A stretch of DNA of 34,088 nt, from the NCBI GenBank assembly GCA_900315605.1, contig OMZU01000015.1:1-34088 (forward strand), written 5' to 3'. A program made the position numbers and the translations under genes. A model generated the notes under the pieces. That model was not told where the DNA came from, did no database searches, and was given only the letters and a program-made list of their open reading frames with translations. This document shows, in pieces, positions 1,467 to 21,058 of the stretch. Source of the stretch: an uncultured Eubacteriales bacterium. GTDB taxonomy: Bacteria; Bacillota; Clostridia; Oscillospirales; Acutalibacteraceae. Numbering within the stretch: the first letter of the stretch is position 1; each line of letters starts with the position of its first letter.

Positions 1467-1469
1467 AAT

Positions 1470-8189: not shown

Positions 8190-8198
8190 TAAAAAAAG

Positions 8199-8348: not shown

Positions 8349-8417
8349 CTTGAATCCGATTTTTCCGTGTTCTTGATTCAGAAATTTCCGCAGTCTTGAA
8401 TCCGATATTTCTGTTGT
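8349..8417. repeat. Three tandem 23-bp units in non-coding DNA
   Basis: Three adjacent 23-nt units start at 8349, 8372 and 8395, each opening with CTTGA(A/T)TC. Units 1 and 3 share CTTGAATCCGAT exactly and the middle one is diverged. An inverted copy of the core, TCGGATTC, lies at 8319-8326. A minus-strand frame runs through them but shows no ribosome-binding site or family features. The surrounding 8280-8590 holds nothing else I can name. Confidence 0.6.
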
Positions 8418-8590
8418 CTGAGAATATTGATGTTGAAAAATGTTGAAAACCGGGGCTTTGGACAGACCGGGAACAATTGAATAATGCAAATCAATTACGC
8501 TTGGTGTGTGAACGACCTTTGAGTTGTTCGGCACCGGGCGTTTTTTTGATAATAAGGCTATATTGTACAATTCAAGGGAACATTTTTATA

Positions 8591-8887
8591 AGTGTGGAGT
8601 TTGGAGTGTGGAGTTATTGTCGTGAAGATAGAATTCATCTATAAAATACATTTGTTCCCGACTGTATTATTATTGATTTGATATTTTTTGCCATTAACCG
8701 TAGGGGCGCACCCATGTGTGCGCCCTACCTATAAGCCAATGTTTGTTCTAAGGACGCACACGCGGGTGCGCCCCTACGGGAAAATTATGACAAACAAATA
8801 TAAATATATTCGGGAATAAACGTATTTTTCAAACAAAACCTGTCTGCTCGACCGAAACTCCACACTTCAAACTCCAAACTCCACACT
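8591..8887. repeat. Dispersed palindromic element 1 (297 bp, MITE-like)
   Basis: Terminal inverted repeats are built from iterated AGTGTGGAGTTTGG-type units (left 8591-8615, right about 8855-8887). Inside are a degenerate TCGGGAA/TTCCCGA hairpin, an AT-rich spacer, and facing copies of GTAGGGGCGCACCC and GGGTGCGCCCCTAC around a short centre, then a further AT-rich arm. It encodes no protein. Related elements lie at 26394-26678 and 29962-30232, with a half copy near 17650-17740. Confidence 0.75.
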
Positions 8888-9038
8888 AAAAAAGCTCCGC
8901 ATTAAAAAAGCTTTCATTCATTGTGGTGCCGTTTTGCGGCATGGAGATTTAGTATAACTATTGACAAACTTATAATTTATTGAGATTTTGGTGTTGATTT
9001 GCGGATCAAATTGAAAAAAATTCGAGAGATTTTTTGGA

Positions 9039-9066
9039 ACTTGTATATTTTTATACAAGTTTTTTG
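9039..9066 (+). terminator. Terminator ahead of the phage cluster
   Basis: Perfect stem ACTTGTATA (9039-9047) / TATACAAGT (9052-9060) with a TTTT loop, followed by a T-run. No gene lies between element 1 and this hairpin, so it ends an unknown short transcript or serves as a regulated stop before the phage late operon. Confidence 0.7.
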
Positions 9067-9094
9067 TTTTTTGACGTATTAGTGGAGGGCAGCC

Positions 9095-9157
9095 TTGACG
9101 GTGCGACGGGGCAAGCTATCGCAAAATTTACGACTGCTTTCGGGAGGTGCGATTTGA
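9095..9157 (+). CDS. Possible 20-codon leader ORF before terS
   Basis: TTG 9095 preceded by GGAGGG (9084-9089) opens a 20-codon basic peptide ending at TGA 9155-9157, immediately next to the TTG start of the terminase small subunit. Its own ribosome-binding site and the exact abutment suggest a translational leader or the remnant of an upstream gene. The evidence is thin. Confidence 0.25.
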   Translation: MTVRRGKLSQNLRLLSGGAI

Positions 9158-9634
9158 TTGAACAGGCTTAGTGCCAGGGAACAGGCGTTCTGCGGATTTT
9201 ATTGCGAGCTTAGGGACGCCAGAGCCGCCGCCGAAAGAGCAGGCTTTAAAAATGCTGCGGCAAAGGGCGAGGCGTTGCTTGGCAGAGAAGAAATCGTTGA
9301 GGAGGTTGCGAGACTCTCGGCACTGAAAAACAGGGAAACCGGAGACATTGCCTCCGCCGGCTACAGGCGGCTTGCGTTTGGGGATATCTCGGACGCGGTG
9401 TCGCTGCTCTTTATGAATGAGCCGGGCGAGGAGGAGCTGAGAAACATGGACTTGTTTTTGGTGTCCGAAATCAAAAAGCCGAGGGATGGTAACATGGAGA
9501 TCAAATTTTTTGACAGGCTAAAGGCGTTGGAAAAGCTGGAGCAGCAGGTTGATTCCGACGGCGGAGCGCAGAGGCTGATCGAGGCTATTGAGCGCGGCGC
9601 AAGGTCGCTGGAGCGTGACGGCGGTGAAGATTGA
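9158..9634 (+). CDS. Terminase small subunit (XtmA-like, Terminase_2 family)
   Basis: Protein of 158 residues. The N-terminal LSAREQAFCGFYCELRDARAAAERAGFKNAAAKGEALL is the helix-turn-helix region typical of Terminase_2/XtmA proteins, followed by a helical oligomerisation region and a hydrophilic tail. It recognises the packaging site and hands DNA to the large subunit. The start is TTG 9158: GGAGGT lies 9 nt upstream and no ATG is available near the conserved N-terminus. It overlaps the large-subunit start by about 11 nt. Confidence 0.85.
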   Translation: MNRLSAREQAFCGFYCELRDARAAAERAGFKNAAAKGEALLGREEIVEEVARLSALKNRETGDIASAGYRRLAFGDISDAVSLLFMNEPGEEELRNMDLFLVSEIKKPRDGNMEIKFFDRLKALEKLEQQVDSDGGAQRLIEAIERGARSLERDGGED

Positions 9635-10880
9635 GAGCTTTTCTCAAAAGCAGCTTAGGGTGCTGAGCTGGTGGCACAAGGATTCGGAAGCAAGGGATTT
9701 TGACGCGATCATCTGCGACGGGGCGGTGAGAAGCGGCAAGACGCTTTGTATGTCGCTGTCGTTTGTGCTGTGGAGCTTTTGGGGACTTGGCGGCGGCGCG
9801 GACTTTGCGCTTTGCGGCAAAACGGTGCGCTCACTGAGAAGAAACATCGTTATCCCGCTTTTGCCGGTTTTGCGGAGCTTGGGATTTGAGTGCGAGGAAA
9901 AGGTCTCGCAGGGCGTGCTCCTGTTGAGAAGGGGCTCGGTTTTGAACAGGTACTATCTTTTTGGCGGCAAGGACGAGAGCTCAGCAGCGTTGATCCAGGG
10001 CATGACGCTTTCGGGGATCATGCTTGACGAGGTCGCGCTGATGCCAAGGTCGTTTGTGGAGCAGGCGTTGGCAAGGTGCTCGGTCGAGGGGGCGCGGTTT
10101 TGGTTCAACTGCAACCCGGAGTACCCGGAGCACTGGTTTTACCGCGAATGGATTTGCAGGGCGCAGGAGAAAAACGCGCTTTATCTGCACTTTACCATGG
10201 ACGACAATCCGTCGCTTTCGGACAGGGTGAAAAGGAGATATGAGAGCCTGTATTCCGGGGCGTTTTACGAGAGGTTCGTGAGGGGCAGGTGGGTCGCGGT
10301 TTGCGGCGCGGTGTATCCGTTTATGGCTGACGGCGAGATGTACTTTGACCCTCCGCAGGACTGCGACAGATTTGTGATCTCGTGCGACTACGGCACGGTG
10401 AACCCGGCTTCGTTCGGGCTGTGGGGCAGGAGCGGCGAGAGCTGGTACAGGCTTGACGAGTATTACTTTGATTCGCGCAAGGAGGGCTTTCAGAAAACCG
10501 ACGAGGAGCACTATGAGGGGCTTTGCCGGCTTGCCGGAGAGAGGAAGATTGAGCGCGTGATCGTTGACCCGTCGGCGGCGAGCTTTATTGAGGTGATTCG
10601 CAGGCACGGAAGGTTCAGGGCGGTTGCCGCAAAAAATGATGTGGCTGACGGGATCCGCAGGGTTTCGGGCGCGCTGAAGAGCGGCAAAATCAGGATCTGC
10701 CGGATTTGCCGCGCGACGCGAAGGGAGTTTTCGCTTTATAGGTGGGACGAGCGGCGAAGGGGCGACTTGCCGGTTAAGGAAAACGACCACGCGATGGACG
10801 ACATCAGATATTTTGTCGCCGCAATTTCGGACGGCGGCTCGGGCGTTTGTGCCGTTGCCGCCGCAAGACAGGAGGATTGA
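9624..10880 (+). CDS. Terminase large subunit (PBSX/XtmB-like packaging ATPase-nuclease)
   Basis: About 418 residues, close to the ~430 of PBSX XtmB. The ATPase half has Walker A GAVRSGKT (33-40) and a Walker B-like GIMLDEVAL with the catalytic Glu. The RNase H-like nuclease half shows acidic-site segments FVISCDYGTVNPAS, RVIVDPSAASF and NDHAMDDIRYF. It pumps DNA into the capsid and cuts it. The start is uncertain: GTG 9624 is favoured (GGAG 10 nt upstream); GTG 9615 and TTG 9588 are in frame. All motifs look intact. Confidence 0.9.
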   Translation: MKIESFSQKQLRVLSWWHKDSEARDFDAIICDGAVRSGKTLCMSLSFVLWSFWGLGGGADFALCGKTVRSLRRNIVIPLLPVLRSLGFECEEKVSQGVLLLRRGSVLNRYYLFGGKDESSAALIQGMTLSGIMLDEVALMPRSFVEQALARCSVEGARFWFNCNPEYPEHWFYREWICRAQEKNALYLHFTMDDNPSLSDRVKRRYESLYSGAFYERFVRGRWVAVCGAVYPFMADGEMYFDPPQDCDRFVISCDYGTVNPASFGLWGRSGESWYRLDEYYFDSRKEGFQKTDEEHYEGLCRLAGERKIERVIVDPSAASFIEVIRRHGRFRAVAAKNDVADGIRRVSGALKSGKIRICRICRATRREFSLYRWDERRRGDLPVKENDHAMDDIRYFVAAISDGGSGVCAVAAARQED

Positions 10881-10884
10881 CAGC

Positions 10885-12027
10885 TTGATATTCAAAAGAA
10901 ACAAACGCCGCGCTGCCTTGGCGGTGCAGACCGTTCCAAAGGAAAAGCAGGATATGAGCGCACTCGGCTTTTTGGGCTTTGAGGCGCAGTGCAGGGCGGA
11001 GCGTGAGCTGTATGACAGGCTCAGAGAGGGCGTGCCGGTGATCGACGCGGCGATATGCAAGCTTGTGAGGCTGATCGGAAGATTTAGGATAGAAGCCGGA
11101 AACGCGGCTGCTCAGAGGGCTGCGGACGAGTTTTGCAGAGAAGTTAAATTCAACGGCTCGTCGTTTGGGCTGGTGAATTTTATTTATGACTATCTTGACT
11201 CGCTGCTGACCTATGGCACGGCGGTGGGCGAGATGATCCCCGACGCGTGCGGAGAGGGCATTGCCGCGCTGTATCAGGCAAGCCTTGACGACGTTGAGAT
11301 CAGGGCGGACAAAACTCCGCTGGATCTGGTTGTGTGCGCAGGCACAGCCGGAAAAAGCGAGCCTGCAAAATATCAGTCGCTGATTTTGGCAAGCCTTTTG
11401 AAGCCCAAGCCCGGCACGGTGAGGGGCACTTCGCTTTTGAGCGGTCTGCCGTTTGTGTGCGGGATCTTGGAGAAGATTTTGGCTTCGCTGAAGCACAACT
11501 GGGAGCGCGCAGGAGACGTGAGGTTTGTTGTGACCTGCAATCCGCAGAACGGCGTTTTTGGTGAGGACGACGCGAGAAAAATCGCCGACGAATGGCGCGA
11601 GGCGGTGAGAAGCGACAGGGTCTGCGACTTTGTGTCGGTGGGCGACGTGAGCGTTAAGGTGATCGGCGCGGAGAGCGAAATGCCGGAATGCGAAACGCCT
11701 GTGAGGGTGGTTCTGGAGCAGATACTGGGTAAGCTGGGGATACCGCCGTTTTTGCTGGGGCTTTCTTGGTCGAGCACCGAGAGGATGAGTACTCAGCAGG
11801 CGGATATTCTGACAAGCGAGCTGGAGTATTACAGGGCTATCCTTGACCCGGTTATCCGCAGGATCGTGAGGATGCACCTGAGGCTTTTGGGGCTGGAGAG
11901 CAGCTTTAGGATCGTTTGGAACGACATTAATTTGCAGGATACTGTGGAGCTGGCTCAGGCAAGGCTTCATAATGCGCAGGCAGAGAAAATCGAACAGGAG
12001 ATCGGGGTGGAATACATTGACGAATAA
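10885..12027 (+). CDS. Phage portal protein
   Basis: About 380 residues, by position and sequence a portal protein, somewhat shorter than PBSX XkdE. It is a helical, charged protein with a central NFIYDYLDSLLTYGTAVGEMIPD segment, typical of the portal stem/wing, and the GLSWSSTERMSTQQADILTSELEYYRAILDPVIRRIVRMHL stretch common in portal C-termini. The dodecameric portal is the DNA entry channel and head-tail joint. Start TTG 10885 follows AGGAGGA (10870-10876) at 8 nt; the terL stop is within that spacer. Its 3' end overlaps the protease gene by 11 nt. Confidence 0.8.
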   Translation: MIFKRNKRRAALAVQTVPKEKQDMSALGFLGFEAQCRAERELYDRLREGVPVIDAAICKLVRLIGRFRIEAGNAAAQRAADEFCREVKFNGSSFGLVNFIYDYLDSLLTYGTAVGEMIPDACGEGIAALYQASLDDVEIRADKTPLDLVVCAGTAGKSEPAKYQSLILASLLKPKPGTVRGTSLLSGLPFVCGILEKILASLKHNWERAGDVRFVVTCNPQNGVFGEDDARKIADEWREAVRSDRVCDFVSVGDVSVKVIGAESEMPECETPVRVVLEQILGKLGIPPFLLGLSWSSTERMSTQQADILTSELEYYRAILDPVIRRIVRMHLRLLGLESSFRIVWNDINLQDTVELAQARLHNAQAEKIEQEIGVEYIDE

Positions 12028-13000
12028 GGACGGTATCAAAAAGCAGGCGGCGGAGACTGATTTGGTGACGGAGAAGGTGAGCGCGGAGGACCTGAGCCTT
12101 ATCAACGGCTATGCGCGGAGAGAGCTGAGCGCGGACGAGGTGTACGTTTTTTCGGTGATACTGTGCGACAACGACGTTGACAGAGACGGCGAGAGGTTTA
12201 CGGTGGAATCGCTGTTCGCGCTGGAAAAGCTTTTTGTGGGCAAGACCGGGATCTTTGACCACGAGCCGAGCGCGAAAAACCAGAGAGCCAGGATATTTGA
12301 GTGCAGGGTCGAGGCGGTCGAGGGCAAAAAAACCGCCACAGGCGACGATTATTTCAGGCTCAGGGCAAGGGCGTATATGCCGAGGTCTGAGGAAAACGAG
12401 GACTTGATCTTGGCAATCGACAGCGGGATCGTCAAGGAGGTCAGCGTGGGCTGCGCGGTGAAGAAAACGGCTTGCAGTGTGTGCGGAGAGGCGATAGGAC
12501 TGTGCGGACACAAAAAGGGCGAGAGCTACTCGGGCAAGCTTTGCTGCGGCGAGCTTTTGGAGCCGTTTGACGCTTATGAATGGAGCTTTGTGGCTGTTCC
12601 GGCTCAGAAAAACGCCGGGGTCACAAAGGGCTTTGACGGAAGGGGTTTTGAGATGGAAAATGTTTTGAAAAGGATCGAAAACGAAAAGGGCTTTTTGCTC
12701 AGCGACGGAGAATGCAGGAGCCTGAAGGCGTATATCGACGGGCTGAGACAGAGCGCGAAGGACGGAGTTTTTTACCGCGACAGCCTTACCACAGAGGTGC
12801 TCAGGCTTTCGGCTGCGGTTCAGCCGGATATTTCGCGCGAGACCATGGAGGCGGTCGTCAAGGGCATGAGCCTTGCGCAGCTCAGGGAATTTAAGACTGC
12901 GTTTGAGAGAACACGCAGCGAAAAGTTGGGCATCAAGCCTCAGCTTGGCTGTGAAAACAGAAAGCAGAACGCGCCGGACTACGGCGAATTCAGAATTTGA
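12017..13000 (+). CDS. Prohead maturation protease (XkdF/HK97 U35-like) with a Cys cluster
   Basis: About 327 residues. The N-terminal half resembles phage prohead serine proteases: SVILCDNDVDRDGERF, the FDHEPSAKNQRARI segment with the likely catalytic His, and the IVKEVSVGCAV segment with the likely catalytic Ser. A Cys/His-rich insert follows (about residues 150-180: C-x2-C, C-x-H, then C-C) and looks like a zinc knuckle. The C-terminal ~110 residues are helical and may serve as a fused scaffold. It cleaves scaffold and capsid precursors during head assembly. Start TTG 12017 has GGGGTGG 6 nt upstream and overlaps the portal stop. Confidence 0.75.
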   Translation: MTNKDGIKKQAAETDLVTEKVSAEDLSLINGYARRELSADEVYVFSVILCDNDVDRDGERFTVESLFALEKLFVGKTGIFDHEPSAKNQRARIFECRVEAVEGKKTATGDDYFRLRARAYMPRSEENEDLILAIDSGIVKEVSVGCAVKKTACSVCGEAIGLCGHKKGESYSGKLCCGELLEPFDAYEWSFVAVPAQKNAGVTKGFDGRGFEMENVLKRIENEKGFLLSDGECRSLKAYIDGLRQSAKDGVFYRDSLTTEVLRLSAAVQPDISRETMEAVVKGMSLAQLREFKTAFERTRSEKLGIKPQLGCENRKQNAPDYGEFRI

Positions 13001-13014
13001 CGGAGGAATAAAGT

Positions 13015-13353
13015 ATGAATGTTGATTTTAAGGGCTTTGGAGAAAACGTTGCGACCTTTGTTGCAGACACCGGTTTGACGGCTCCGGGAGTTGCCGTTAA
13101 GGTAACTGACGACGGAAAGGTTGCCAAGTGCAGCGCGAACGACAAGTTTTGCGGTATTTGTATCGCCGTGAAGGACGGCTATGCCACAGTTCAGCTCAGT
13201 GGCTACGCGGAGTTTAAGGCAGGCTCAAGGATAGCTCCGGGTTATCAGAAGCTTGCCGCTAACTCAAACGGCGGCGTTGCGATTAACGACAGTGCAGGCA
13301 GAGAGCTGCTTGTTGTGTGTTCGACAGTGAGCATGGCAGGAGTTATGCTGTAA
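13015..13353 (+). CDS. Capsid decoration/cement protein (putative)
   Basis: A 112-residue protein, mainly beta and Gly/Ala/Val-rich (LTAPGVAVKVTDDGKVAKCS, YATVQLSGYAEFKAG, IAPGYQKLAANSNGGV). This pattern and its place between protease and capsid genes match head-decoration proteins of the DUF2190-like type. It would bind the outside of the capsid shell. GGAGGAATAAAGT precedes ATG 13015. Confidence 0.65.
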   Translation: MNVDFKGFGENVATFVADTGLTAPGVAVKVTDDGKVAKCSANDKFCGICIAVKDGYATVQLSGYAEFKAGSRIAPGYQKLAANSNGGVAINDSAGRELLVVCSTVSMAGVML

Positions 13354-13372
13354 GCTTTTGGGAGGTTATAAT

Positions 13373-14380
13373 ATGGCAAATTTTGAGAATATTACTATTG
13401 AAAAAGGAATGTATCAGGTCAAGGGCGGATTGTCTCAGGCGTTGGAGCAGCTTGACCCGAGCGTGAACTACATGGGAACCGAGCTTGAGGGGCTTGACGC
13501 CTTTTCGCGCCAGCTCAAGCGTTTTGGCATCAAGGTGAGCGGAAGCTCAAGCGACTGCGTTGAAAAGTTCTTTCAGACCTCTAACTCAGCCGCGCTCTTT
13601 CCGGAATATGTGGGCAGAGCGGTCGCGCAGGGTATTGAAAGGGCAAACGTGCTGCCCGACATTGTGGCGACTGTGACCGACATTGAGGGCATGGATTACA
13701 GAAGCATCGCTTCGGAGCCGACTGACGACGAAAAGTCGCTCAAGATCGTGGGCGAGGGCGCGGCGATCCCGCAAACGGTGGTCAAGACGAGAGAAAACCT
13801 TGTTACGCTCAAAAAGCGCGGAAGAATGTTGGTTGCCTCTTATGAGGCACTCAGATTCCAGAGACTCGACCTGTTTACTGTCACGCTTAATCAGATCGGC
13901 GCATATATTGCAAGAGCGCAGCTTTCGGACGCTATTGACGTGCTCAAAAACGGCGACGGCAACAACAACTCAGCATTGAGTGTAAACGTTGACACCGCAG
14001 GCACTGTGACCTATGACGATTTGGTCAAGTTCTGGGCCGCGCTGGCTCCGTATGAGCTCAATACTATCCTTGCGCCGACGGCAGAGATGAAAAAGATCCT
14101 TTCGCTGAGTCAGATGCAGGATTCAAGAGCAGGGCTTGATTTTCACGGCACCGGAAACATGGTCACTCCGCTGGGCGCGTCGCTGATCCATGTTCCCGAA
14201 ATGACTTCGGGCTCTGTTATCGGTCTTGACAAGAGCTGCGCGCTCGAAAAGGTTCAGGCGGGCTCGGTTGTGACAGATTACGACAAGCTTATTGACCGTC
14301 AGCTTGAAAGAGCGGCGATCACCTGCACCGCCGGCTTCTCAAAAATCTTTAGAGACGCGGCAAAGACGCTTAACTGTTAA
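13373..14380 (+). CDS. Major capsid protein (HK97-fold, XkdG-like)
   Basis: A 335-residue protein in the major-capsid slot and of fitting size (XkdG is ~311). It includes a helical N-terminus, VLPDIVATVTDIEGMDYRS, EGAAIPQTVVKTRENLVTLKKRGRMLVASYEAL (typical E-loop/spine-helix region), and a C-terminal GSVIGLDKSCALEKV...VTDYDKLIDRQLERAAIT...GFSKIFRDA segment seen in phage capsid proteins of this class. Start ATG 13373 has GGGAGGT 7 nt upstream; an earlier in-frame ATG (13358) lacks one. It ends just before the connector gene. Confidence 0.85.
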   Translation: MANFENITIEKGMYQVKGGLSQALEQLDPSVNYMGTELEGLDAFSRQLKRFGIKVSGSSSDCVEKFFQTSNSAALFPEYVGRAVAQGIERANVLPDIVATVTDIEGMDYRSIASEPTDDEKSLKIVGEGAAIPQTVVKTRENLVTLKKRGRMLVASYEALRFQRLDLFTVTLNQIGAYIARAQLSDAIDVLKNGDGNNNSALSVNVDTAGTVTYDDLVKFWAALAPYELNTILAPTAEMKKILSLSQMQDSRAGLDFHGTGNMVTPLGASLIHVPEMTSGSVIGLDKSCALEKVQAGSVVTDYDKLIDRQLERAAITCTAGFSKIFRDAAKTLNC

Positions 14381-14393
14381 GGATGTGAGCGGC

Positions 14394-14747
14394 TTGGATA
14401 CTGCGGCGGTTTATGAAAGATTCAGGGAGCTTGCCGGGCTTGGCGAAGAAGAAACGCGGTTTGTGAGCCTTGCAAACGACGCTTGCAGATATATTGAGAG
14501 CATAAAAAGCAAGCGTGAGCTTTCGGAATCGGACGAAAAAAGACTTGAGCTGCTTGCCGCAGCTTATACCTTCAGGCTGTTTTCCATGTGCGGCTCAGAG
14601 GAGCTTCGCTCCTTTGTGGCGGGCGACGTTAGGATCACGTCGTCCGCCGGAGTGCGCGAAAAGGCAGAGTCGCTTTGGAACGCGCTGAGTGCGGAAAACT
14701 CGGATCTGATCGGCGGCAGCGGATTTTTGTTTGGCAGGGTGATGTGA
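14394..14747 (+). CDS. Head-tail connector protein (YqbG-like adaptor)
   Basis: About 117 residues, mainly helical (YERFRELAGLGEEETRFVSLANDACRYIESIK, ELLAAAYTFRLFSM), fitting the small head-completion adaptors that follow the capsid gene in PBSX/skin elements. The start is uncertain: TTG 14394 has AAGGA 10 nt upstream; GTG 14385 is the other candidate. The TGA stop overlaps the ATG of the next gene (ATGA). Confidence 0.6.
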   Translation: MDTAAVYERFRELAGLGEEETRFVSLANDACRYIESIKSKRELSESDEKRLELLAAAYTFRLFSMCGSEELRSFVAGDVRITSSAGVREKAESLWNALSAENSDLIGGSGFLFGRVM

Positions 14748-15103
14748 TGAATTTGTTTGGGGCTGTGGGCACTGCGATCGAAAAATACGGTGCGTCGGTG
14801 AGAATAGAAACCGACGGGGATTTGACAGAGGGCAAGGCGTTTGTTGAGCCGCTGAGATACAGGAACCGAATCTACATCGGCGGTCAGTACCGGCTTGCAG
14901 GCATGGACAGAAAGGAAAAGTACCTTTATGTCGGCACGGTGGAAAACGCGCTGACGGAGGATCGTTCGGTGGTTGAGGCAAACGGCGCAAGGTATATCGT
15001 AAAGCGCAGCGAGCTGTATTATGCCGGCGACGTTCCGGTGTATATTTGGGCGATCTTGCAGCCCTGCGGCGAGGCGTTGGAGGATGAATATGAAGCAGAT
15101 TGA
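14747..15103 (+). CDS. Head closure / minor structural protein (XkdH-like position)
   Basis: A 118-residue, beta-rich protein (LTEGKAFVEPLRYRNRIYIGGQYRLAG, KYLYVGTVENAL, ARYIVKRSELYYAGDVPVYIWAIL) in the slot of XkdH/YqbH head-closure proteins. The YIVKRSE...PVYIWAIL tail is typical of those proteins. ATG 14747 overlaps the previous stop by 1 nt, implying translational coupling. Confidence 0.6.
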   Translation: MNLFGAVGTAIEKYGASVRIETDGDLTEGKAFVEPLRYRNRIYIGGQYRLAGMDRKEKYLYVGTVENALTEDRSVVEANGARYIVKRSELYYAGDVPVYIWAILQPCGEALEDEYEAD

Positions 15104-15530
15104 AAAACAGGTTGACAGGATAATTGTGCGGCTAAAGCAGCTTGAGCCGCTCGGAGGTCTGAGGTTTGTCAGGGAGTACGGGACCCACAGGCTCGAAAGC
15201 CCGGTCAGGGGGCTCTTGGGCGTTGTTTCAATCAAGGAAGCCGTGCTTTCAAAGAGCTATATCGGCGGCGTGACCGAAGCCGGGCTAAAGGGCGACAAGT
15301 ATTCGGCGGTGATCTCGATCAAGGTCTATGCACCCAAAACCGAGAACGGCAGCGGACTTTCGGAGACCGTGGGCGAGCTTATGCTGGGGCTGAGAGAGGT
15401 TGACGACGAAAAAATAATCACCGACACCGGTGTGAGTGCGATCGAGTTTGACCAGGATATGAACGCGATCTGCCGCACGGTGAGCTTTGGCGTCGATTTT
15501 TGCTTGTGCGAGGAGGCGTCGGCGTTATGA
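15090..15530 (+). CDS. Tail terminator/completion-like protein (putative)
   Basis: A 146-residue protein. A helical N-terminus is followed by alternating strands (YSAVISIKVYAPKTENGSGLSETVGELMLGL, then VSAIEFDQDMNAICRTVSFGVDFCLCEE), a pattern seen in small tail-terminator proteins that cap the tail tube. Its position after the connectors agrees. ATG 15090 has GGAGG 6 nt upstream and overlaps the preceding gene by 14 nt. The assignment rests on context more than sequence. Confidence 0.5.
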   Translation: MKQIEKQVDRIIVRLKQLEPLGGLRFVREYGTHRLESPVRGLLGVVSIKEAVLSKSYIGGVTEAGLKGDKYSAVISIKVYAPKTENGSGLSETVGELMLGLREVDDEKIITDTGVSAIEFDQDMNAICRTVSFGVDFCLCEEASAL

Positions 15531-15919
15531 TACACGCAATACCCGAAAAGCGCGAGAGCGCGGTCATCAGGCTGAACGGCAAGGTTTTGGGCGGAGTTTT
15601 GAGCGCGGTGAGGATAGCCGAGAACAAGGGCGAGGGGATCTATGAGCTTTTGAGCGAAAAGCCCGTTGCCGTAATAAAAAACACTGAGTACAGAATTGAG
15701 CTGACGGCTGAGGGCGAGGCAAACCGCGCGTTTTTGCAGGGCGGCTATGAGCTGAGCATTGAGGACAAGGACAAATGCGTGAGGTACACCGGCTGCACCA
15801 CAAGGCGGCTTGAGGGCTGCCTCACGCCAAATAAGCGAGTTGGCTATAAGGCTGTGGTGGTTGCAAAGGAGAGGATCGAAGATGACGGAGAAAACGGAGA
15901 GGCTGACAGAGCTTGCTGA
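15527..15919 (+). CDS. Beta-rich phage structural protein, possible tail-tube-like protein
   Basis: A 130-residue protein that I cannot place firmly. Beta-rich pattern VIRLNGKVLGGVLSAVRIAENKGEGIYEL ... TEYRIELTAEGEA ... LSIEDKDKCVRYTGCTTRRLEGCL ... YKAVVVAKERIED. The layout, with an NG-K opening strand and a final strand ending in VVAKER, is reminiscent of tube/core proteins. If this is the tube, it is the only rigid tail component in the cluster, as no sheath precedes it. Its start overlaps the previous stop (ATGA) and AGGAGG lies 10 nt upstream. Confidence 0.45.
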   Translation: MIHAIPEKRESAVIRLNGKVLGGVLSAVRIAENKGEGIYELLSEKPVAVIKNTEYRIELTAEGEANRAFLQGGYELSIEDKDKCVRYTGCTTRRLEGCLTPNKRVGYKAVVVAKERIEDDGENGEADRAC

Positions 15920-16037
15920 GACTGCCGATCAGGGCAGCCCGGGCTTTGACGCCGAGGCTCTGAGCGAGGAGCTGGAACGCGAGAGCAGAAGATACAGCCG
16001 AGCCTTGGGTGAGGAAGAGGAGGCAAGGCTGAGATGA
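15882..16037 (+). CDS. Small acidic protein (51 aa) in the tail-chaperone slot
   Basis: A 51-residue, highly charged and probably helical protein (Glu-rich with scattered Arg). AGGAGAGG precedes ATG 15882. It overlaps the preceding gene by 38 nt and the next by 4 nt. In PBSX the chaperone XkdN lies here, just before the tape measure XkdO; this protein is far shorter than XkdN, and no tape measure follows. Confidence 0.6.
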   Translation: MTEKTERLTELAETADQGSPGFDAEALSEELERESRRYSRALGEEEEARLR

Positions 16038-16546
16038 AGCAGGCTCCCATGAGATTCAAGGGCTTTGAGTGGCGGCATAATCCGCGCGAAATCAGCCTTG
16101 AATGTGAAAAAAACACAGGCGAGCTGAACTTTCCGTACAATGGCTCAAGCCTGAGCGAAACCGGCAGAAAATGCCTTGTTATCCGCGGAAAGGGCGAGCT
16201 CTTCGGCGAGGACTGCCTTGAACAGCTTGACAGCCTTGTTGAGCTGTTCAGAGACAGCGGCGAGGGCTTGCTGACGCTTCCGGGAATGAAGCCGTTTTAC
16301 GCGGTGTTTGAGAACATAAGCGTGACCGGCTCGCCAAAGCCCGACGTGCTGGGCTACAGCTTTGTTTTTCGCGAATCGCCAAAAAATCCCAAAGCGACCG
16401 GGCTGACGCACTGCGTTACGAGCGGCGAGAATTTGTGGGATATTTCATACCGCTTTGATGTTCCGATAGACAGGCTAGTTGAGCTGAATCCGCAAATAAA
16501 GAGACCGGACGTTGTTGAGGATGGGAGCGTGATAAGGCTGTGCTGA
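16034..16546 (+). CDS. LysM-domain baseplate hub protein (XkdP-like)
   Basis: A 170-residue protein. The N-terminal ~115 residues (MRFKGFEWRHNPREISLECEK ... LLTLPGMKPFYAVFENISVTG ... YSFVFRES) match the hub region of XkdP/skin proteins. The C-terminal ~45 residues are a LysM domain (HCVTSGENLWDISYRFDVPIDRLVELNPQIKRPD...). In contractile-tail systems such LysM proteins join the tube start to the spike/hub. The ATG overlaps the 51-aa ORF stop (ATGA), leaving no room for a tape-measure gene. Its last ~12 codons are partly duplicated 80 bp downstream. Confidence 0.8.
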   Translation: MKQAPMRFKGFEWRHNPREISLECEKNTGELNFPYNGSSLSETGRKCLVIRGKGELFGEDCLEQLDSLVELFRDSGEGLLTLPGMKPFYAVFENISVTGSPKPDVLGYSFVFRESPKNPKATGLTHCVTSGENLWDISYRFDVPIDRLVELNPQIKRPDVVEDGSVIRLC

Positions 16547-16637
16547 GTTATGAGGTTGAATATAACGAAAAGAGGTATAAAAAACCTGATATAGTGGATG
16601 ACGGGAGCGTGATAAGGCTGTGCTGAGTTATGAGGTT
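16523..16637 (+). repeat. 80-bp-offset tandem duplication across the xkdP/xkdQ overlap
   Basis: A perfectly repeated 35-bp block (16523-16557 and 16603-16637) contains the last codons of the XkdP-like gene, its TGA and the overlapping GTG start of the XkdQ-like gene. Similarity extends a few bases on either side. Between the copies a 28-codon frame (GTG 16540 to TGA 16624-16626) begins like XkdQ and ends like XkdP (PDIVDDGSVIRLC), a chimeric mini-ORF made by the duplication. Confidence 0.85.
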
Positions 16638-17555
16638 ACATATAACGACAAAAGCACTTCGGCTTTGGAAAATGTGATTTCGGCAGAGCTTGACCGCGAG
16701 ATCGGAGTTCCTGCGGACAGCCTGAGGCTTGTTTGCGAGTTTGACCCAAGACTGCGAAATGCAGACATGATCCGCGCGTTCAGCGGCGACCGTGTGGTTT
16801 TTGAAGGACAGCTTGACGAAATCATCACAGAACAAAAAATCGGCTGCACGATAATGCGCTTGAATTTCAGGAACATTGCAGCAGCACTTTTGGACAACGA
16901 GGCGGAGCCGGTGATGTATGTCAACCCGTCCGCAGAGATGATATTCACAAGGCACCTAAAGCCCTTTGGAGTTAAGGATTACCGCGCGGACAGCCCCGCG
17001 CTTTTGGGCACGCTGAGAATAGTCAAGGGCATGACGCATTGGCAGGTGTTTGAGAACTATTGCAGAAACGCCTTTGGCGAGCCTCCCGGGATCGACAGCA
17101 ACGGCACGGCGTGGTTCGGCGGCTTGAAAAAGTCCAAAACAGTGTATTTTGGCGGCAACGGATTTCGTTATTATTCTCTGAAAGAAAAAATAGAGAGGTG
17201 CAAGCTGATATCGGCAGTCAGGGTAAAGCTAAGCGATTCGCCGCGATACACAGGGCTTATCGAGAACAAATCAAGGGCGGCGGAAAACATAACCAGAGTC
17301 AGGCTTGTTGACGCGGTCGCCGACAAAAGCAACATACAAACCGCAGACAGAATAATAGCGGCAGGCAACCGCGCAGCCCACAGCATTGAGCTGAGATGTA
17401 AAGGCTGCCAAACCGAGCTTTTGGGCTGCAAGGCGGAACTGGACGATAAGCTTCTTGGATCGCAAAAAAAGCTGACTGTCTGCAAGCTGAAATATCTCTT
17501 TGACTCCAAAGGCGAAAGAACCCATCTTTTACTCCGAGCAGAAAGCTCGGAGTAA
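16620..17555 (+). CDS. XkdQ/gpD-like baseplate hub protein
   Basis: A 311-residue protein of the phage late-control D / XkdQ type: LRLVCEFDPRLRNADMIRAFSGDRVVFEGQLDEI at the N-terminus, GMTHWQVFENYCRNAFG in the middle, and KCKLISAVRVKLSD-like and beta-rich parts near the C-terminus. It forms the central hub above the spike. The GTG start lies in the second copy of the 80-bp duplication. The last ~10 residues (HLLLRAESSE) are encoded by a 16-bp perfect palindrome of dispersed-repeat origin, so the natural C-terminus was probably replaced. Confidence 0.75.
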   Translation: MLSYEVTYNDKSTSALENVISAELDREIGVPADSLRLVCEFDPRLRNADMIRAFSGDRVVFEGQLDEIITEQKIGCTIMRLNFRNIAAALLDNEAEPVMYVNPSAEMIFTRHLKPFGVKDYRADSPALLGTLRIVKGMTHWQVFENYCRNAFGEPPGIDSNGTAWFGGLKKSKTVYFGGNGFRYYSLKEKIERCKLISAVRVKLSDSPRYTGLIENKSRAAENITRVRLVDAVADKSNIQTADRIIAAGNRAAHSIELRCKGCQTELLGCKAELDDKLLGSQKKLTVCKLKYLFDSKGERTHLLLRAESSE

Positions 17556-17560
17556 AAGAT
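17524..17560. repeat. Perfect 16-bp-stem palindrome containing the xkdQ stop codon
   Basis: Arms ATCTTTTACTCCGAGC (17524-17539) and GCTCGGAGTAAAAGAT (17545-17560) with loop AGAAA. The TAA stop of the XkdQ-like gene is at 17553-17555, inside the right arm. The left arm carries the same TTTACTCCG(A/G)GCAGA motif that opens the repeat units around vapBC. A hairpin this strong could attenuate transcription, though no U-run follows. Confidence 0.85.
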
Positions 17561-17827
17561 AAACCCGGTTGCCCGAAAACAGGCTGCATCTTTAGGTAAC
17601 GTTTTGGAAACGTTTGATTTATGATCCCTACTAAAAATAAATCCATACTAATACAGTCGGGAACAAAGGATTTTGTAGTAATTGTCCTTTCTGCCCGACC
17701 GAAATTTTACATTTTCCATTTTCAAATTTTCATTAGTTTTATCCAAGTGTACCAATAAAACAAACGTAATTTTCGGGCAACCGTTGCATGAATTAATACC
17801 GAGTTCTATCCTCGGAATAAAAGAGGT
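17561..17827. repeat. Repeat-filled gap inside the phage late operon
   Basis: About 270 bp without a gene, separating the XkdQ-like gene from the spike gene where neighbouring genes overlap. It includes a half copy of the dispersed element (about 17645-17740, with GTCGGGAACA ... CTGCCCGACC arms followed by an AT-rich end). CCCGGTTGCCCGAAAA near 17569 and TTCGGGCAACCG near 17774 face each other as an outer inverted pair, suggesting one inserted palindromic unit. Confidence 0.6.
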
Positions 17828-17833
17828 GTGATT

Positions 17834-18166
17834 ATGTGGTTGATGAATTATATGGCGAAAAAATCTATTAACACTCCGAACGCAGTCAAGGGAAGCGTCA
17901 AGGGCAATGACCTTAGCGGAACCTCGGTCGCTTCCTCGGGCGAGCACAAAATGCTAAAGAGCTGCCTTCCGTTCGGCGTGGTCAGCGTTCCGCCAAAGGG
18001 CGAACAGGCGGTCGTGCTTGCGCTCGACGGCAGCGAGGTCGGCTTGGGCGTGATCGCCGACGCTTCGGGACTTGAGGAAGGCGAGGTCATGCTCTATTCC
18101 AAGGGCGGCGCAAGTATTGTGCTCAAAAACAACGGCAGTGTAATGATTAACGGCAGGGAGTTTTGA
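17834..18166 (+). CDS. Baseplate spike/assembly protein V-like (gpV/gp45-like)
   Basis: About 110 residues. The OB-fold-like central part (CLPFGVVSVPPKGEQAVVLALDGSEVGLGVIAD) and the C-terminal beta repeat GEVMLYSKGGASIVLKNNGSVMINGREF are characteristic of phage baseplate assembly protein V / Mu gp45-type spikes. It would be the membrane-piercing tip. ATG 17834 is chosen with GAGGTG just upstream; GTG 17828 and ATG 17843 are alternatives. It is short for a spike, keeping only the minimal fold. It overlaps the next gene. Confidence 0.7.
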   Translation: MWLMNYMAKKSINTPNAVKGSVKGNDLSGTSVASSGEHKMLKSCLPFGVVSVPPKGEQAVVLALDGSEVGLGVIADASGLEEGEVMLYSKGGASIVLKNNGSVMINGREF

Positions 18167-18168
18167 TT

Positions 18169-18510
18169 TTGGTTGATGTAATGCTTAAAAACGGCGATAT
18201 TGAGCTTAACAGCATGGGCGGTGCTGTGATGCTCGGCGGCTTTGACGCTGCGGTGCAAAGAGCTTTGATTTGCCTGAACACTCGCCGCGGCTCGTTTATT
18301 TATGACAGAAGCCTCGGCGTGCCTCCGCTCAGCCCGGGCAGCGGCTGCCGAATCGACAGGCAGCGGCTTGAAATGCTTATTAACGAGGCTTTGGCGGACG
18401 AGGAGGATATATATGTTGAGGTCTTGTCGGCGGACGAGAGCCTCAAAATCAGGATAAATGCCGAAAACCAAAGCAGAATTGAGGAGGTGTTCCCCTTTGG
18501 AGACGTATGA
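18169..18510 (+). CDS. Baseplate wedge protein gp25/XkdS-like (DUF2634)
   Basis: About 113 residues. FDAAVQRALICLNTRRGSFIYDRSLGVPP is the gp25/DUF2634 core, including the conserved E/R-type wedge segment, followed by RLEMLINEALADEEDIYVEVLSA. It is part of the baseplate wedge that starts tube and sheath assembly in contractile tails. Start TTG 18169 has GGGAG 8 nt upstream; TTG 18163 and ATG 18181 are in frame. It overlaps the gpJ gene by about 14 nt. Confidence 0.75.
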   Translation: MVDVMLKNGDIELNSMGGAVMLGGFDAAVQRALICLNTRRGSFIYDRSLGVPPLSPGSGCRIDRQRLEMLINEALADEEDIYVEVLSADESLKIRINAENQSRIEEVFPFGDV

Positions 18511-19555
18511 TGAGATCTATCAGAGAATGAAAAGCAAATACATAGAAGAAAGCGGCAGCGAGTTTGACGAAAAAAGCGATATTGCGATCCGCCTCAGGGT
18601 TTTGGCAGGCGAGATCTACAACGCCGCAACAAGCATGGAATGGCTCAGGCGACAGATGTTCGTAACAACGGCTTCGGGTGAGTTTTTGGATGAGATCGCC
18701 GAGCAGCGCGGACTTGAGCGCAAGGGCTCAAGGGCTTCGTCCGGCAGCCTGACCTTTATTGTTTCGGAGCCTCTCGGCTACGACGTTGTGATACCCGAGG
18801 GCACAGTCGCCGCCACTCAGGATATTGTTCCGATCAGGTTTTATACAACCGAAACAGTTGTGCTCGGCGGTGCTCAAACATCTGTGAATGCGCAGGCGAG
18901 AGCGGAGCTTGACGGAGCCTTGGGCAACGTGAACGCCGACACAGTCACAGTGAGCGTCAGCGTGCCTCAGGAGATCGAAGAGATCACAAACCTTTTGCCG
19001 TTCACAGACGGCAGAGAGCCCGAGAGCGACAGCTCGCTCAGGGAGCGTATCCGCGATACCTACGTCAACCGCGCCAACGGCGCGAACAGCGCGTACTACC
19101 GGATGCTTGCAATGTCGGTTGAAGGCGTTGAAAAGGTCGGAATAATCCCCAGGCTCCACGGTGCGAACTCGGTTGGCGTTTATGTTTGCGGCAACAGCGG
19201 CGCGGTGTCGCAGTCGGTGCTTGACAGCGTAAGGGATCTTGTGACCCAAAAACGCGAGCTTCTTACGGATATAACGGTTGAAAACGCCGCGCTTGTGGCT
19301 TATGATTTGGACGTTACCATATCCCCGAAAATCGGCTACAGCATTGCCGAAGCCACGATCGCGTGCCGAAGCGCGTTTGAGGAATACATAAATTCGCTGC
19401 CGGCAGGGGCAAAGCTATATCTTTCCGCTTTGGGCAAAAGGCTGCTTGAAACCGGCACGATCGACAACTATGAGTTTGACGCGTTTATGGAGAATAGGCA
19501 GCTTGCAGGTTCACAGTGCTTCAAGCCGGGCAACATCACAATAAGGACGGAATGA
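18497..19555 (+). CDS. Baseplate J protein (gpJ/XkdT-like)
   Basis: A 352-residue protein, very close to the ~348 of XkdT. It has clear Baseplate_J features: RRQMFVTTASGEFLDEIAEQRGLERKGSRASSGSLTF at the N-terminus, IPEGTVAATQDIVPIRFYTTE, and the central DGREPESDSSLRERIRDTYVNRANGANSAYYRMLAMSVEGVEKV, then GIIPRLHGANSVGVYVCG. It is the main wedge subunit of contractile baseplates. Start TTG 18497 is supported by GAGGAGGTG 8 nt upstream. The 3' end is followed within 1 nt by the gpI-like gene. Confidence 0.9.
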   Translation: METYDEIYQRMKSKYIEESGSEFDEKSDIAIRLRVLAGEIYNAATSMEWLRRQMFVTTASGEFLDEIAEQRGLERKGSRASSGSLTFIVSEPLGYDVVIPEGTVAATQDIVPIRFYTTETVVLGGAQTSVNAQARAELDGALGNVNADTVTVSVSVPQEIEEITNLLPFTDGREPESDSSLRERIRDTYVNRANGANSAYYRMLAMSVEGVEKVGIIPRLHGANSVGVYVCGNSGAVSQSVLDSVRDLVTQKRELLTDITVENAALVAYDLDVTISPKIGYSIAEATIACRSAFEEYINSLPAGAKLYLSALGKRLLETGTIDNYEFDAFMENRQLAGSQCFKPGNITIRTE

Positions 19556-19556
19556 T

Positions 19557-20042
19557 ATGAGCAGCTTTTATTCTATGCGAGAAAAGCTTCTTCCGCTCGG
19601 CATATACACCGACGAGCCGGGAAGCGAGCTATACTGTGAACAACAGGCGTTTGCGGCAGGGCTTGACCTGCTTTTTGAGCAGCTTGAAGAAATGGAAGCC
19701 GAGCTGTTTATTTCTACGGCAGAGACCTACGGGCTCAGCGAGCGCGAAAAGCTGTTCGGCAGGGTCAGAGAGGATTTGACACTCTCTCAGCGGCGCGAGC
19801 TTTTGTGCAAAAGAGAGCTTATGAATTTTGAAGTCCTGACGCTCGAAGCCTTTGGGCGCGTTCTCGAAAGCTGGGGAGTGTCTGACTATTCTTTTGTTGA
19901 ATCTTTGACGAGAGCCAGACTGACAGTGAGAATTGCCGACGAGCTCGACGAAACGCAGCAGCGCGTTATTGAAGAAAGAGCAAACATAGAGATCCCTGCC
20001 CACGCGGAAGTAAGAATAACCTACGGAATCTCAGACGAATAA
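19557..20042 (+). CDS. gpI/XkdU-like tail protein (DUF2313)
   Basis: A 161-residue protein of the XkdU/DUF2313 type: it opens with LLPLGIYTDEPGSELYCEQQAFAAGLDLLFEQLEEMEAELFISTAETYGLSEREKLFG and ends with IPAHAEVRITYGIS, the usual hallmark. It completes the wedge and links tail fibres in PBSX, but no fibre gene follows here. The flanking repeat begins 1-2 nt after the stop codon. Confidence 0.85.
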   Translation: MSSFYSMREKLLPLGIYTDEPGSELYCEQQAFAAGLDLLFEQLEEMEAELFISTAETYGLSEREKLFGRVREDLTLSQRRELLCKRELMNFEVLTLEAFGRVLESWGVSDYSFVESLTRARLTVRIADELDETQQRVIEERANIEIPAHAEVRITYGISDE

Positions 20043-20043
20043 T

Positions 20044-20302
20044 TTTACTCCGTTTTTTACTCCGAGCAGAAAGGTCGGACTGAATGATATCGTCGGTAGC
20101 CCGGTAGAAAACCTTTATTTGATTTTTGAGTTTTTTGCTCCGGGCAGATAGGTTGGACTGAATGGTAATGTCAGTTGCCTGATAGAAGCCGTTATTTTAT
20201 ATTTGTCAAGATATTTATGTAAACGTACAAACCGATAAACAAAAATATAACAAGGTCGGGCAGAAGCGCGTTATTCTTAAAACGTTTCTGCCCGGCTTCT
20301 TT
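20044..20302. repeat. Left long direct repeat flanking vapBC
   Basis: Two ~80-bp units, each starting TTT(A/G)CTCCG(A/G)GCAGA, are followed by a ~130-bp tail (20172-20302). The tail matches 21221-21352 with only a few differences. The tail ends in a hairpin GTCGGGCAGAAGCG ... CGTTTCTGCCCGGC, which could terminate transcription. Confidence 0.85.
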
Positions 20303-20340
20303 GAATTGCTTTCATTGCTTTCTAATCTTTTTAATTTTCA

Positions 20341-20369
20341 TTGACATAATATATATCATGGTATATACT
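20341..20369 (+). promoter_or_regulatory. vapBC promoter with an overlapping palindromic operator
   Basis: TTGACA (20341-20346), a 17-bp spacer and TATACT (20364-20369). Inside lies the near-perfect palindrome TATATAT-CATG-GTATATA (20350-20367), covering spacer and -10. This is where a VapB or VapBC repressor would be expected to bind for autoregulation. Confidence 0.75.
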
Positions 20370-20408
20370 TAATGTATAAAGATAAAGCTTTAGAAAGGGG
20401 AATGTGCT

Positions 20409-20636
20409 ATGGACACAGCAAAGGTTTTTGAAAACGGAAGAAGTCAGGCGGTCAGACTGCCGAAAAAATACAGATTTCTTGCTGACGAGGTAGTTGTTCA
20501 GCGTTTGGGTGCTTCTTTGGTGCTCACTCCCAAGGATAAACTGTGGGATAGCTTTCTCAGCGGTATCAACGGCTTTACCGAGGATTTTATGGACGAGGGA
20601 AGAAGTGAAACGTCTGTCGAGAGGGAAGATCTATGA
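20409..20636 (+). CDS. vapB: VapB-type antitoxin (AbrB/MazE-like fold)
   Basis: A 75-residue protein. The N-terminal MDTAKVFENGRSQAVRLPKKYRFLADEVVVQRLG is the SpoVT/AbrB-type swapped-hairpin DNA-binding domain (the NGRSQAVRLPK motif is diagnostic of VapB/MazE). The C-terminal ~30 residues (LWDSFLSGINGFTEDFMDEG) would wrap into the toxin active site. It neutralises VapC and represses its own promoter. GAAAGGGG lies upstream of the ATG, and its TGA overlaps the vapC start. Confidence 0.9.
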   Translation: MDTAKVFENGRSQAVRLPKKYRFLADEVVVQRLGASLVLTPKDKLWDSFLSGINGFTEDFMDEGRSETSVEREDL

Positions 20637-21058
20637 AAATGCTCGATACAAATATCTGTATTTACACGATAAAGCAAAAACCTGCGGAAGTTTTAGACAG
20701 ATTTAAGCAGGAGCTTTCAAACGGACTTTGTATATCAGCCATCACTCTTGCCGAGCTGAAGCACGGTGTAGAGAAAAGCTCAAAGCCCGAGAGAAACGAG
20801 CTTGCGCTTGCTCAGTTTTTGACTGCACTGACCGTTATCCCTTTTGATGATTTGGCTGCCGTTGAGTACGGAAAGATTTGCGCCTACCTACAAAAACAAG
20901 GTAAACCTATTGGTACAATGGATATGCTGATAGCAGCCTCGGCTATTTCCTCGGATATGACACTTGTAACAAACAATACTCGCGAATTTGAAAGAATCCC
21001 AAACATATCTTTAGAAAACTGGGTTTTTTACTCCGAGTTTTTTACTCCGGGCAGATAG
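20633..21058 (+). CDS. vapC: VapC-type PIN-domain ribonuclease toxin
   Basis: A 141-residue PIN-domain protein with the acidic site in order: MLDTNICIYTIK (first Asp), ITLAELKHG (Glu), GTMDMLIAASAI (Asp) and TNNTREFERIP, the motif-4 segment. VapC toxins cleave tRNA or rRNA when VapB is degraded. ATG 20633 overlaps the vapB stop (ATGA), so the two are translationally coupled. The usual VapC end would be near LENW; here ~10 further residues (FYSEFFTPGR) are encoded by the first bases of the right-hand direct repeat, so the C-terminus is a repeat-derived fusion. Confidence 0.9.
   Translation: MKMLDTNICIYTIKQKPAEVLDRFKQELSNGLCISAITLAELKHGVEKSSKPERNELALAQFLTALTVIPFDDLAAVEYGKICAYLQKQGKPIGTMDMLIAASAISSDMTLVTNNTREFERIPNISLENWVFYSEFFTPGR

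Follow-up and report, generated by a model that had tools for sequence, protein, structure and literature searches.

An ancient phage-derived operon of the Ruminococcus bromii group that probably encodes a gene-transfer-agent-like particle with a collapsed tail

Gene transfer agent (GTA)-like particles are already known from several bacterial groups, and the closest published case to the one treated here is FpGTA of Faecalibacterium (Borodovich et al., Nat Commun 2026, PMC12946183). According to that paper, FpGTA is encoded by a 10.5-kb operon of ten open reading frames and a second operon, forms capsids of ~40 nm with 8.4-8.9 kb of host DNA, and was judged most likely podovirus-like, with no identifiable tail. 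The same study reports GTA-like packaging in other Ruminococcaceae, Oscillospiraceae and Christensenellaceae as well, with gene clusters given only for Faecalibacterium, and the word "bromii" does not occur in its main text. Here, we analyse a phage-derived operon of 17 genes at positions 9158-20042 of a 34,088-nt stretch (the window; contig OMZU01000015.1) from the draft genome (2.42 Mb, 93 contigs) of an uncultured member of the Ruminococcus bromii genus, family Acutalibacteraceae, order Oscillospirales. Both systems belong to gut Clostridia and share an operon of ~10 kb with TerS, TerL, portal, scaffold, capsid and further phage-like proteins; the baseplate, fibre and lysis genes of FpGTA lie in its second operon, whereas here the baseplate is part of the single 17-gene operon.

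Two other systems offer useful comparisons. PBSX of Bacillus subtilis has the same order of head, connectors, (sheath), tube, LysM (XkdP), XkdQ, spike-like, gp25 (XkdS), gpJ (XkdT) and XkdU, but has kept its sheath, tape measure, lysis and regulatory genes, and no gene of these four kinds was recognised here. The alphaproteobacterial GTAs, RcGTA among them, are likewise vertically inherited sets of structural and packaging genes, and an RcGTA virion chain (6tba) matches our model of the tube protein; their tail is siphovirus-like with a tape measure, while the R. bromii-group tail derives from a contractile one. No paper on the R. bromii-group cluster, and no description of its reduced tail architecture, was found in the literature covered, which lacks most subscription papers and all bioRxiv preprints. 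An earlier note on this DNA, made from the letters alone, had called it a candidate for an undescribed system, which is too strong given that FpGTA was published in January 2026.

We consider it probable that the operon encodes a domesticated, vertically inherited GTA-like particle whose tail has collapsed to a podovirus-like form. All 17 frames are open, on a single strand and in the order given by the earlier note for an intact head-plus-baseplate run (Table 1). That no frame is available for a sheath or a tape measure was also borne out: the longest coding-strand frames belong to TerL, portal, gpJ, protease and capsid, with no spare frame beside them, and the sheath family PF04984 has no match in the genome. 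Long antisense frames opposite TerL and portal (433 aa at 10804-12105 and 359 aa at 9981-11060) were taken as shadow frames. The LysM, XkdQ-like, gp25, gpJ and gpI genes follow each other as in PBSX, and head, packaging and tail genes form one cluster with no prominent integrase, repressor or replication family among the Pfam and PHROG matches to the 17 proteins. Walker A, Walker B and three nuclease acidic motifs of TerL look intact by eye.

The cluster is a near-constant part of genomes in the genus. A capsid protein search was positive in 149 of 161 genus genomes and in 79 of the 81 high-quality ones (at least 90% complete, at most 5% contaminated), with a single match per positive genome except for G082 and G134 (two each), and the LysM protein was matched in 21/24 same-genus genomes, the window's own included. 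Among 119 relatives taken from viral and genome collections, 76 loci hold terL, capsid and gpJ, and all 76 are collinear and on one strand, with a terL-to-gpJ span of 7.6-9.0 kb (median 8.48 kb); of the other 43, 32 are truncated where their contig or locus stops, and the rest are L026 and ten distant phage contigs. Unmatched coding-strand frames of at least 250 aa occur in only two of the 76 loci (L119, L125), both of them fusions of terminator and tube. Together with the window there are 77 full loci, in which genes were counted with iterated profiles: terS is present in 72, cement in 76, terminator in 74, tube in 75, the 51-aa type in 76 and gpI in 74, and the remaining eleven genes in 77 each. 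The gpI count excludes three false matches; its profile drifts onto the gpJ start (L023, L060, L077, L087), and probably does so in several of the more distant loci as well. Purifying selection on the structural genes is evident from the ratio of non-synonymous to synonymous substitution rates (dN/dS), which is 0.11 between the window and L021 (13 genes, with 64.5 synonymous differences against 24.5 non-synonymous) and lies at 0.036-0.173 for eight further pairs that overlap in part, the lowest value being that of the capsid gene alone; single genes can be higher, e.g. cement with 0.56 in L093/L106. Thus, the comparisons of gene order and dN/dS proposed in the earlier note favour its view of a stable, domesticated, GTA-like or short-tailed particle, as does the predicted tube fold discussed below. 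Flanking genes are conserved but different among subclades, so the location of the cluster has changed.

Related clusters were found in three families of the order. A capsid profile matched 101 of 395 genomes across the order, representing 52 of 172 genera: 51/60 in the window's own family (own genus 5/5, other genera 46/55) and, in other families, 28 genomes of f14, 20 of f24 and one each of f7 and f15. A class-wide draw gave 16 matches in 392 genomes, four of them outside the order. Loci were fetched for 9 of the 28 f14 genomes, 19 of the 20 f24 genomes, the f7 genome and 10 of the 46 own-family genomes of other genera. For 42 genomes, a tree of TerL, portal, protease and capsid (1298 columns) was compared with one of seven ribosomal proteins (1158 columns), leaving out G321, G409 and G474. 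The two trees have 28 of 39 splits in common, and the Mantel correlation is 0.68, with 0 of 999 permutations as high; taken with the capsid counts in the genus, this indicates stable vertical inheritance.

Evidence for a dismantled tail comes from relatives that keep the sheath (L170-L177, L180-L185, L197). These share the head lineage and, as far as their contigs extend, also the baseplate genes and their order, but differ in a frame of ~320-355 aa between terminator and tube that starts with RPGVY or RPGVF. Sheath-family matches support its identity in L172 (phrog_279 1.5e-48, PF17482 5.1e-15), L180 (6.2e-28) and L182 (4.3e-26), while the frame of L184 matches only PF17482 at 0.047. By position and motif, 8/9 f14 loci have a sheath, as do 6/7 of the closer f24 loci and L197, the outgroup from f7, whose contig ends within the frame; L198, L205 and L206, in which the capsid gene is divergent, lone or cut, do not enter these counts, and RPGVY/RPGIF frames upstream of the cluster in L183 and L193 were not counted as sheaths. 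By the same two marks no sheath was found in L178, L179 and 11 divergent f24 loci. None was found in the own-family loci examined either, judged by the motif in other genera and by terminator-tube spacing in the genus. Since the sheath of relatives sits at the terminator/tube junction, it has been lost here, and comparison of the loci shows that the operon had an ancestor with a contractile tail. Parsimony on the ribosomal tree gives four changes of sheath state from a sheathed root. The earlier note had reasoned that close relatives with sheath and tape-measure genes at exactly the expected junctions would mean a simple deletion; relatives with a sheath exactly there do exist, but in other families, and as none was seen in the own-family loci examined the deletion is not a recent, simple one. 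Judged from these sequences, the sheath loss is ancient and family-wide.

A sheath from elsewhere in the genome, the basis of the earlier note's idea of a core that borrows its missing proteins, also found no support. The sheath profile A5 had no match in any of 35 own-family genomes, 29 from the genus and 6 from other genera, among them the single-contig genomes G039, G043 and G300. Its controls were positive in 6/6 cases; they are the source genomes of the profile, match by construction and therefore only show that the search works. PF04984 was found in 3 of 88 genus genomes, on other contigs. Neither the window, nor its genome, nor the 35 own-family genomes thus have a sheath between terminator and tube as PBSX-type particles do, and no other locus in the genomes searched provides one of this lineage.

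What remains of the tail is probably a single ring. The earlier note had proposed structure prediction of the 15527-15919 product against tube and sheath folds, and a tail-tube-type fold is indeed predicted: AlphaFold2 folded 130 residues of the 139-aa protein with a predicted local distance difference test score (pLDDT) of 83.6 and a predicted template modelling score (pTM) of 0.74, and Foldseek matched the model to neck proteins of phage 812 (3e-7), the tube of siphophage R4C (1.7e-4), the RcGTA virion chain (2.4e-4) and the monocin tube (2.8e-4), with further matches to Mu and phiCD508 tail chains and Hcp. The preceding protein is predicted to have a tail-terminator fold via its homologue in L125, where terminator and tube are one protein. 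This fusion, modelled with pLDDT 87.9 and pTM 0.59 (domain packing unsure), matches the lambda gpU tail terminator (3fzb, target TM-score 0.64) as well as tube proteins. The same fusion, seen as two profile matches in a single frame, occurs in five further relatives within the genus (L107, L111, L117, L118 and L119). Stopper and tube are fused in L038, L039 and L041, where a separate terminator match is absent, and also in L202 and L208 of other genera. Reduction has gone further in L200, L201 and L207, which have no room for a tube gene, in L179 with a fusion of terminator and LysM, and in L199, whose cluster ends after the terminator. A terminator or stopper makes up one ring, and a tube protein fused to such a one-ring protein could be expected to form only one ring too. 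From these fusions and gene losses we infer a single tube ring, so that a sheath would have no tube around which to form and a tape measure no distance to bridge.

The tape measure itself seems to have left a trace. The earlier note correctly described the ATGA overlap of the 51-aa gene and the LysM gene (16034-16037) but misplaced the tape-measure position at this junction; it is the 51-aa gene that occupies this position. The f14 gene immediately upstream of LysM codes for 159-215 aa with a C-terminus of D-A/S-R-R-Y/F plus seven residues (8/8), and among the sheathed relatives inspected this protein has 112-215 aa and is often accompanied by a chaperone-like gene; none of the sheathed loci listed has a classical long tape measure before LysM. 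Genes of the 51-aa type in the genus have a median of 42 aa, and a motif of the f14 kind is present in 58 of 87 (ESRRY in the window) compared to ~1% or less of shuffled sequences. The 51-aa profile also matches at the pre-LysM place in L176 (3e-3) and L185 (2e-5). Thus, the protein that sheathed kin have at the tape-measure position appears to have a truncated relative in the 51-aa gene, which we read as the anchoring end of a former short tape-measure-like protein. Start distances are 331-353 nt from tube to 51-aa gene (25 loci) and 140-153 nt from there to LysM (34 loci), and where a PBSX-type particle would have a long tape measure between tube and LysM there are only these 51 aa.

The proposed particle would therefore work as follows, as far as gene content allows such a reconstruction. 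The terminase would fill the capsid with host DNA, and the neck would consist of portal, two connectors, terminator and one ring of tube protein that sits directly on a baseplate of LysM protein, hub, spike and wedges. One ring could not be wrapped by a sheath and would make length control by a tape measure pointless, and what once stood at the tape-measure position would have shrunk to its anchoring motif. The outcome would be a podovirus-like particle built from myovirus parts, released via lysis genes held elsewhere and delivering short pieces of host DNA to related cells. Most species of the R. bromii group carry one conserved phage-derived gene set of this kind, probably an old system for moving DNA between cells.

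Several observations weigh against this reconstruction. Particle, packaged DNA and transfer are predicted from the genes, and the single tube ring is deduced from fusions and gene loss; the tube model reached moderate TM-scores, for the most part 0.5-0.6. On the particle tree, sheath-state parsimony needs five changes and leaves the root undecided, 11 of the 39 splits differ between the two trees, and only the ribosomal one unites the own family in a clade (support 96). Head and tail modules may recombine between species, as suggested by synonymous divergence that rises strongly along the operon, from ~0.2 in the head genes to ~1 from connector 1 onward in L069/L071 and from the terminator onward in L127/L128. 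Twelve of the 161 genus genomes lack a capsid match, two of them high-quality and ten less than 90% complete (one of these ten, G006, has the LysM gene at a contig end). The strict C-terminal motif was absent from all four closer f24 proteins tested (112-130 aa), and the 51-aa gene shows two non-synonymous and zero synonymous differences between the window and L021. No fibre gene of known type was found in the window's genome, and no lysis gene was recognised among the 17 genes, although lysis genes were not searched for. Finally, the insert between hub and spike in the window copy (Table 1) could lower the expression of the genes that follow at the end of the operon.

The conservation of terminase, portal and capsid genes, their vertical inheritance, a set of 17 that includes no gene for replication or integration, and the precedent of FpGTA together argue for packaging of host DNA and GTA-like release, but other fates of the particle have to be weighed. 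A PBSX-like killer would also package host DNA and kill relatives by wall damage via LysM and spike, delivering no DNA. The PBSX-like gene order and the retention of LysM, hub and spike would suit it, and the authors of PMC12946183 leave this function open for FpGTA. We nevertheless regard a killer as rather unlikely, given that no sheath was found and hence no contractile punching is expected, and that head, cement and terminase genes are under constraint even though a mere killer would not need them. The repeated loss of tail parts (tube in L200, L201 and L207, the L179 fusion, the truncated L199 cluster) might instead speak for capsids that package DNA for export or storage, or as a by-product of lysis, with a baseplate that only closes or docks the head. 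This is less probable still, since hub, spike, gp25 and gpJ are retained in every full locus and gpI in nearly all, and they are constrained in the pairs measured.

That the operon specifies part of a complete contractile particle, with sheath and tape measure coming from another locus, has a parallel in the two separated operons of FpGTA, which show that split loci occur. We judge it very improbable: the A5 and PF04984 searches speak against a sheath in trans (a tape measure in trans was not searched for), and where the tube is fused to terminator or stopper there is no place for a repeated one. A decaying prophage remnant is scarcely credible, even though the sheath was indeed lost in evolution and the window copy has an insert and a tandem duplication, because the frames of the window are open, dN/dS is ~0.1, all comparable loci are collinear and the cluster is near-universal in the genus. 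Just as little likelihood attaches to a phage satellite or helper-dependent mobile element that uses the tail of another phage. Its tail gene set is incomplete as one would expect, IMG/VR lists contigs of 4-15 kb as viruses (L021-L047) and there are five unannotated GenBank records, but no integrase or repressor occurs among the 17 genes, the particle tree largely follows the host, and flanks in several loci resemble ordinary chromosomal genes.

A domesticated GTA-like particle in the R. bromii group would also bear on the origin of FpGTA. Divergent f24 loci (L186-L196) are homologous to our cluster and fit operon FpGTA I as it is described in PMC12946183; f24 operons have about nine genes, and L188, L190 and L195 end after the hub. 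FpGTA may accordingly belong to the same lineage as the R. bromii-group cluster. A bolder proposal, which we put forward tentatively and hold a little too uncertain to favour, is that one ancient GTA lineage spans much of the order, that its contractile tail was dismantled independently about four times down to one fused tube ring with FpGTA and the R. bromii-group particle as end-points, and that it underlies much of the packaging of short host-DNA fragments reported from human gut viromes. Quite apart from this proposal, the R. bromii-group particle would show, through living intermediates, how a contractile phage tail can shrink to a podovirus-like neck of one ring, and with the natural fusions of tube to terminator or stopper the control of tail length becomes open to experiment. 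The R. bromii group would moreover have a near-universal DNA-packaging system, the group being a keystone starch degrader. The cluster would further provide a gene-level candidate for the GTA-like packaging reported in Ruminococcaceae and Oscillospiraceae, for which PMC12946183 gives genes only in Faecalibacterium.

The lack of a fibre gene, pointed out in the earlier note, is true of the window's own genome but a trait of only part of the genus, since 13 of 29 genus genomes have a fibre-like gene in a profile search (not found in R. bromii 5AMG and YE282 and in Ruminococcus sp. FMBCY1). This gene encodes 153 aa, lies 50-158 nt after gpI in 23 fetched loci and matches a PHROG of unknown function at 7.3e-6; its N-terminal motif is what we take to be fibre-like. 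It stands near the cluster in 5 of 9 other genomes, and G277 has two weak matches on another contig. The fibre gene seems to be an ancestral part of the cluster that the window's clade has lost or replaced.

Table 1. Genes of the operon and an inserted element in the window, with the evidence for each assignment
Feature	Position	Strand	Evidence
TerS, terminase small subunit	9158..9634	+	PF03592 1.4e-9; phrog_2606 6.7e-13
TerL, terminase large subunit	9588..10880	+	PF03237 9.3e-11; phrog_2 1.2e-42
Portal	10813..12027	+	phrog_30703 3.4e-106; PF04860 8.4e-6 (below cut-off)
Putative head-maturation protease/scaffold	11972..13000	+	phrog_16951 2e-98 (function unknown); phrog_4523 major head and protease 0.0028
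Capsid cement/decoration protein	13015..13353	+	phrog_4588 1.3e-15; PF22758 0.0047 (below cut-off)
Major capsid protein	13358..14380	+	PF25209 2.4e-17; phrog_3922 1.5e-95
Connector 1 (adaptor-like)	14292..14747	+	position; phrog_541 head-tail adaptor only 0.19; kept in 77/77 full loci
Connector 2 (stopper-like by position)	14747..15103	+	no significant family match
Tail terminator, lambda gpU-like fold inferred via homologue L125	15090..15530	+	phrog_37 tail terminator only 0.2
Predicted tail-tube-fold protein, 139 aa	15527..15919	+	AlphaFold2, Foldseek, fusions in relatives
51-aa protein at tape-measure position, C-terminal E-S-R-R-Y motif	15882..16037	+	motif, position
XkdP-like hub/LysM protein	16034..16546	+	PF01476 4.6e-7; PF07157 3.5e-4
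XkdQ-like baseplate hub	16620..17555	+	phrog_177 3.5e-5
Insert between hub and spike genes, like a miniature inverted-repeat transposable element (MITE)	~17563..17790 (approximate bounds)		perfect 14-bp terminal inverted repeats
Spike-like (Mu gp45-like) protein	17828..18166	+	PF06890 1.4e-4 (below Pfam cut-off); phrog_25991 3.2e-11 (unknown function)
gp25/sheath-initiator-like wedge	18163..18510	+	PF10934 4.8e-5 (below Pfam cut-off); phrog_120 6.1e-6
Baseplate J (gpJ) wedge	18458..19555	+	PF04865 2.7e-41
gpI/XkdU-like baseplate protein	19557..20042	+	phrog_521 5.9e-12; phrog_203 2.8e-5

Some assignments in Table 1 need comment. The capsid gene likely starts at ATG 13373, and the open frame of the terminator begins at 15021. 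Neither the two connectors nor the terminator have a significant family match in Pfam or PHROG, the LysM protein has weak matches to endolysin PHROGs via its LysM domain, and a match of the spike to one excisionase/regulator PHROG at 0.13 was taken as chance. Profiles of tube, terminator, connector 2 and capsid retrieved no usable PDB entry by sequence, and the fold search did better; a match of profile A3 to an LDL-receptor adaptor (0.001) was also taken as chance. An Rfam scan of 8000-21600 found nothing at gathering score, and promoter and terminator scans, which gave more matches than shuffled sequence (17 vs 7.2 and 24 vs 14.6), were not used.

Beyond the regular clusters, a few loci show variants of the head genes. 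The capsid gene precedes portal and protease in L171 and the protease in L186, L188 and L191, G403 has a second, lone and divergent capsid gene (L205:9570-10499), and G474 has two capsid fragments of 59 residues, one at a contig end. In L026 (IMG/VR 2878477910_000001), the capsid (7346-8369) is the sole cluster gene on a 10-kb contig that also has integrase, DHH phosphoesterase and tRNA-His guanylyltransferase genes, and this stretch is 98.3% identical to R. bromii 5AMG over exactly 1024 nt. It looks like a capsid gene captured by a phage or mobile element, or an assembly chimera; bases 1-7300 had ~1% query coverage with annotated phages among the eight matches listed of 127, some of them at tRNA genes. 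Clusters of this lineage were also found in four unannotated "Bacteriophage sp." scaffolds from human faeces in Mexico (L289-L292; GenBank MT836604, MT835508, MT835952, MT835769), with a sheath-type spacing in L292 and flanks in L290 and L291 that we presume to be chromosomal, e.g. RpoA-like and GerA-like genes. These scaffolds may represent either host DNA in particles or bacterial carry-over. The virus-like-particle study PMC8361208 is a plausible source, although neither accession prefix was found in its text, and the scaffolds were not used as evidence of packaging.

The window copy has two small peculiarities that went unmentioned when the earlier note called the cluster intact, which holds for its open frames. 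The terminal inverted repeats of the MITE-like insert lie at 17566-17579 (+) and 17770-17783 (-), and the hub-to-spike start distance is 1208 nt, ~280 nt above the median of 929 (range 896-1001) in 76 loci. A tandem duplication at ~16520-16653 spans the LysM/XkdQ junction and holds the two genes apart. Upstream of the operon, two tandem genes (4283-6277 and 6282-8189) are alike in their N-terminal halves, and the second encodes a NACHT NTPase (PF05729 1.1e-12); they possibly represent nucleotide-binding leucine-rich repeat (NLR)-like defence, and no PADLOC model matched either product at 0.001. Directly downstream of the cluster, positions 20409-21058 encode a MazE-like antitoxin (PF04014 6.7e-6) and a PIN-domain toxin (PF01850 1.4e-19); a PADLOC Cas10 match to the PIN protein (6.6e-4) was taken as chance. 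This toxin-antitoxin pair occupies the side where other relatives have the fibre-like gene.

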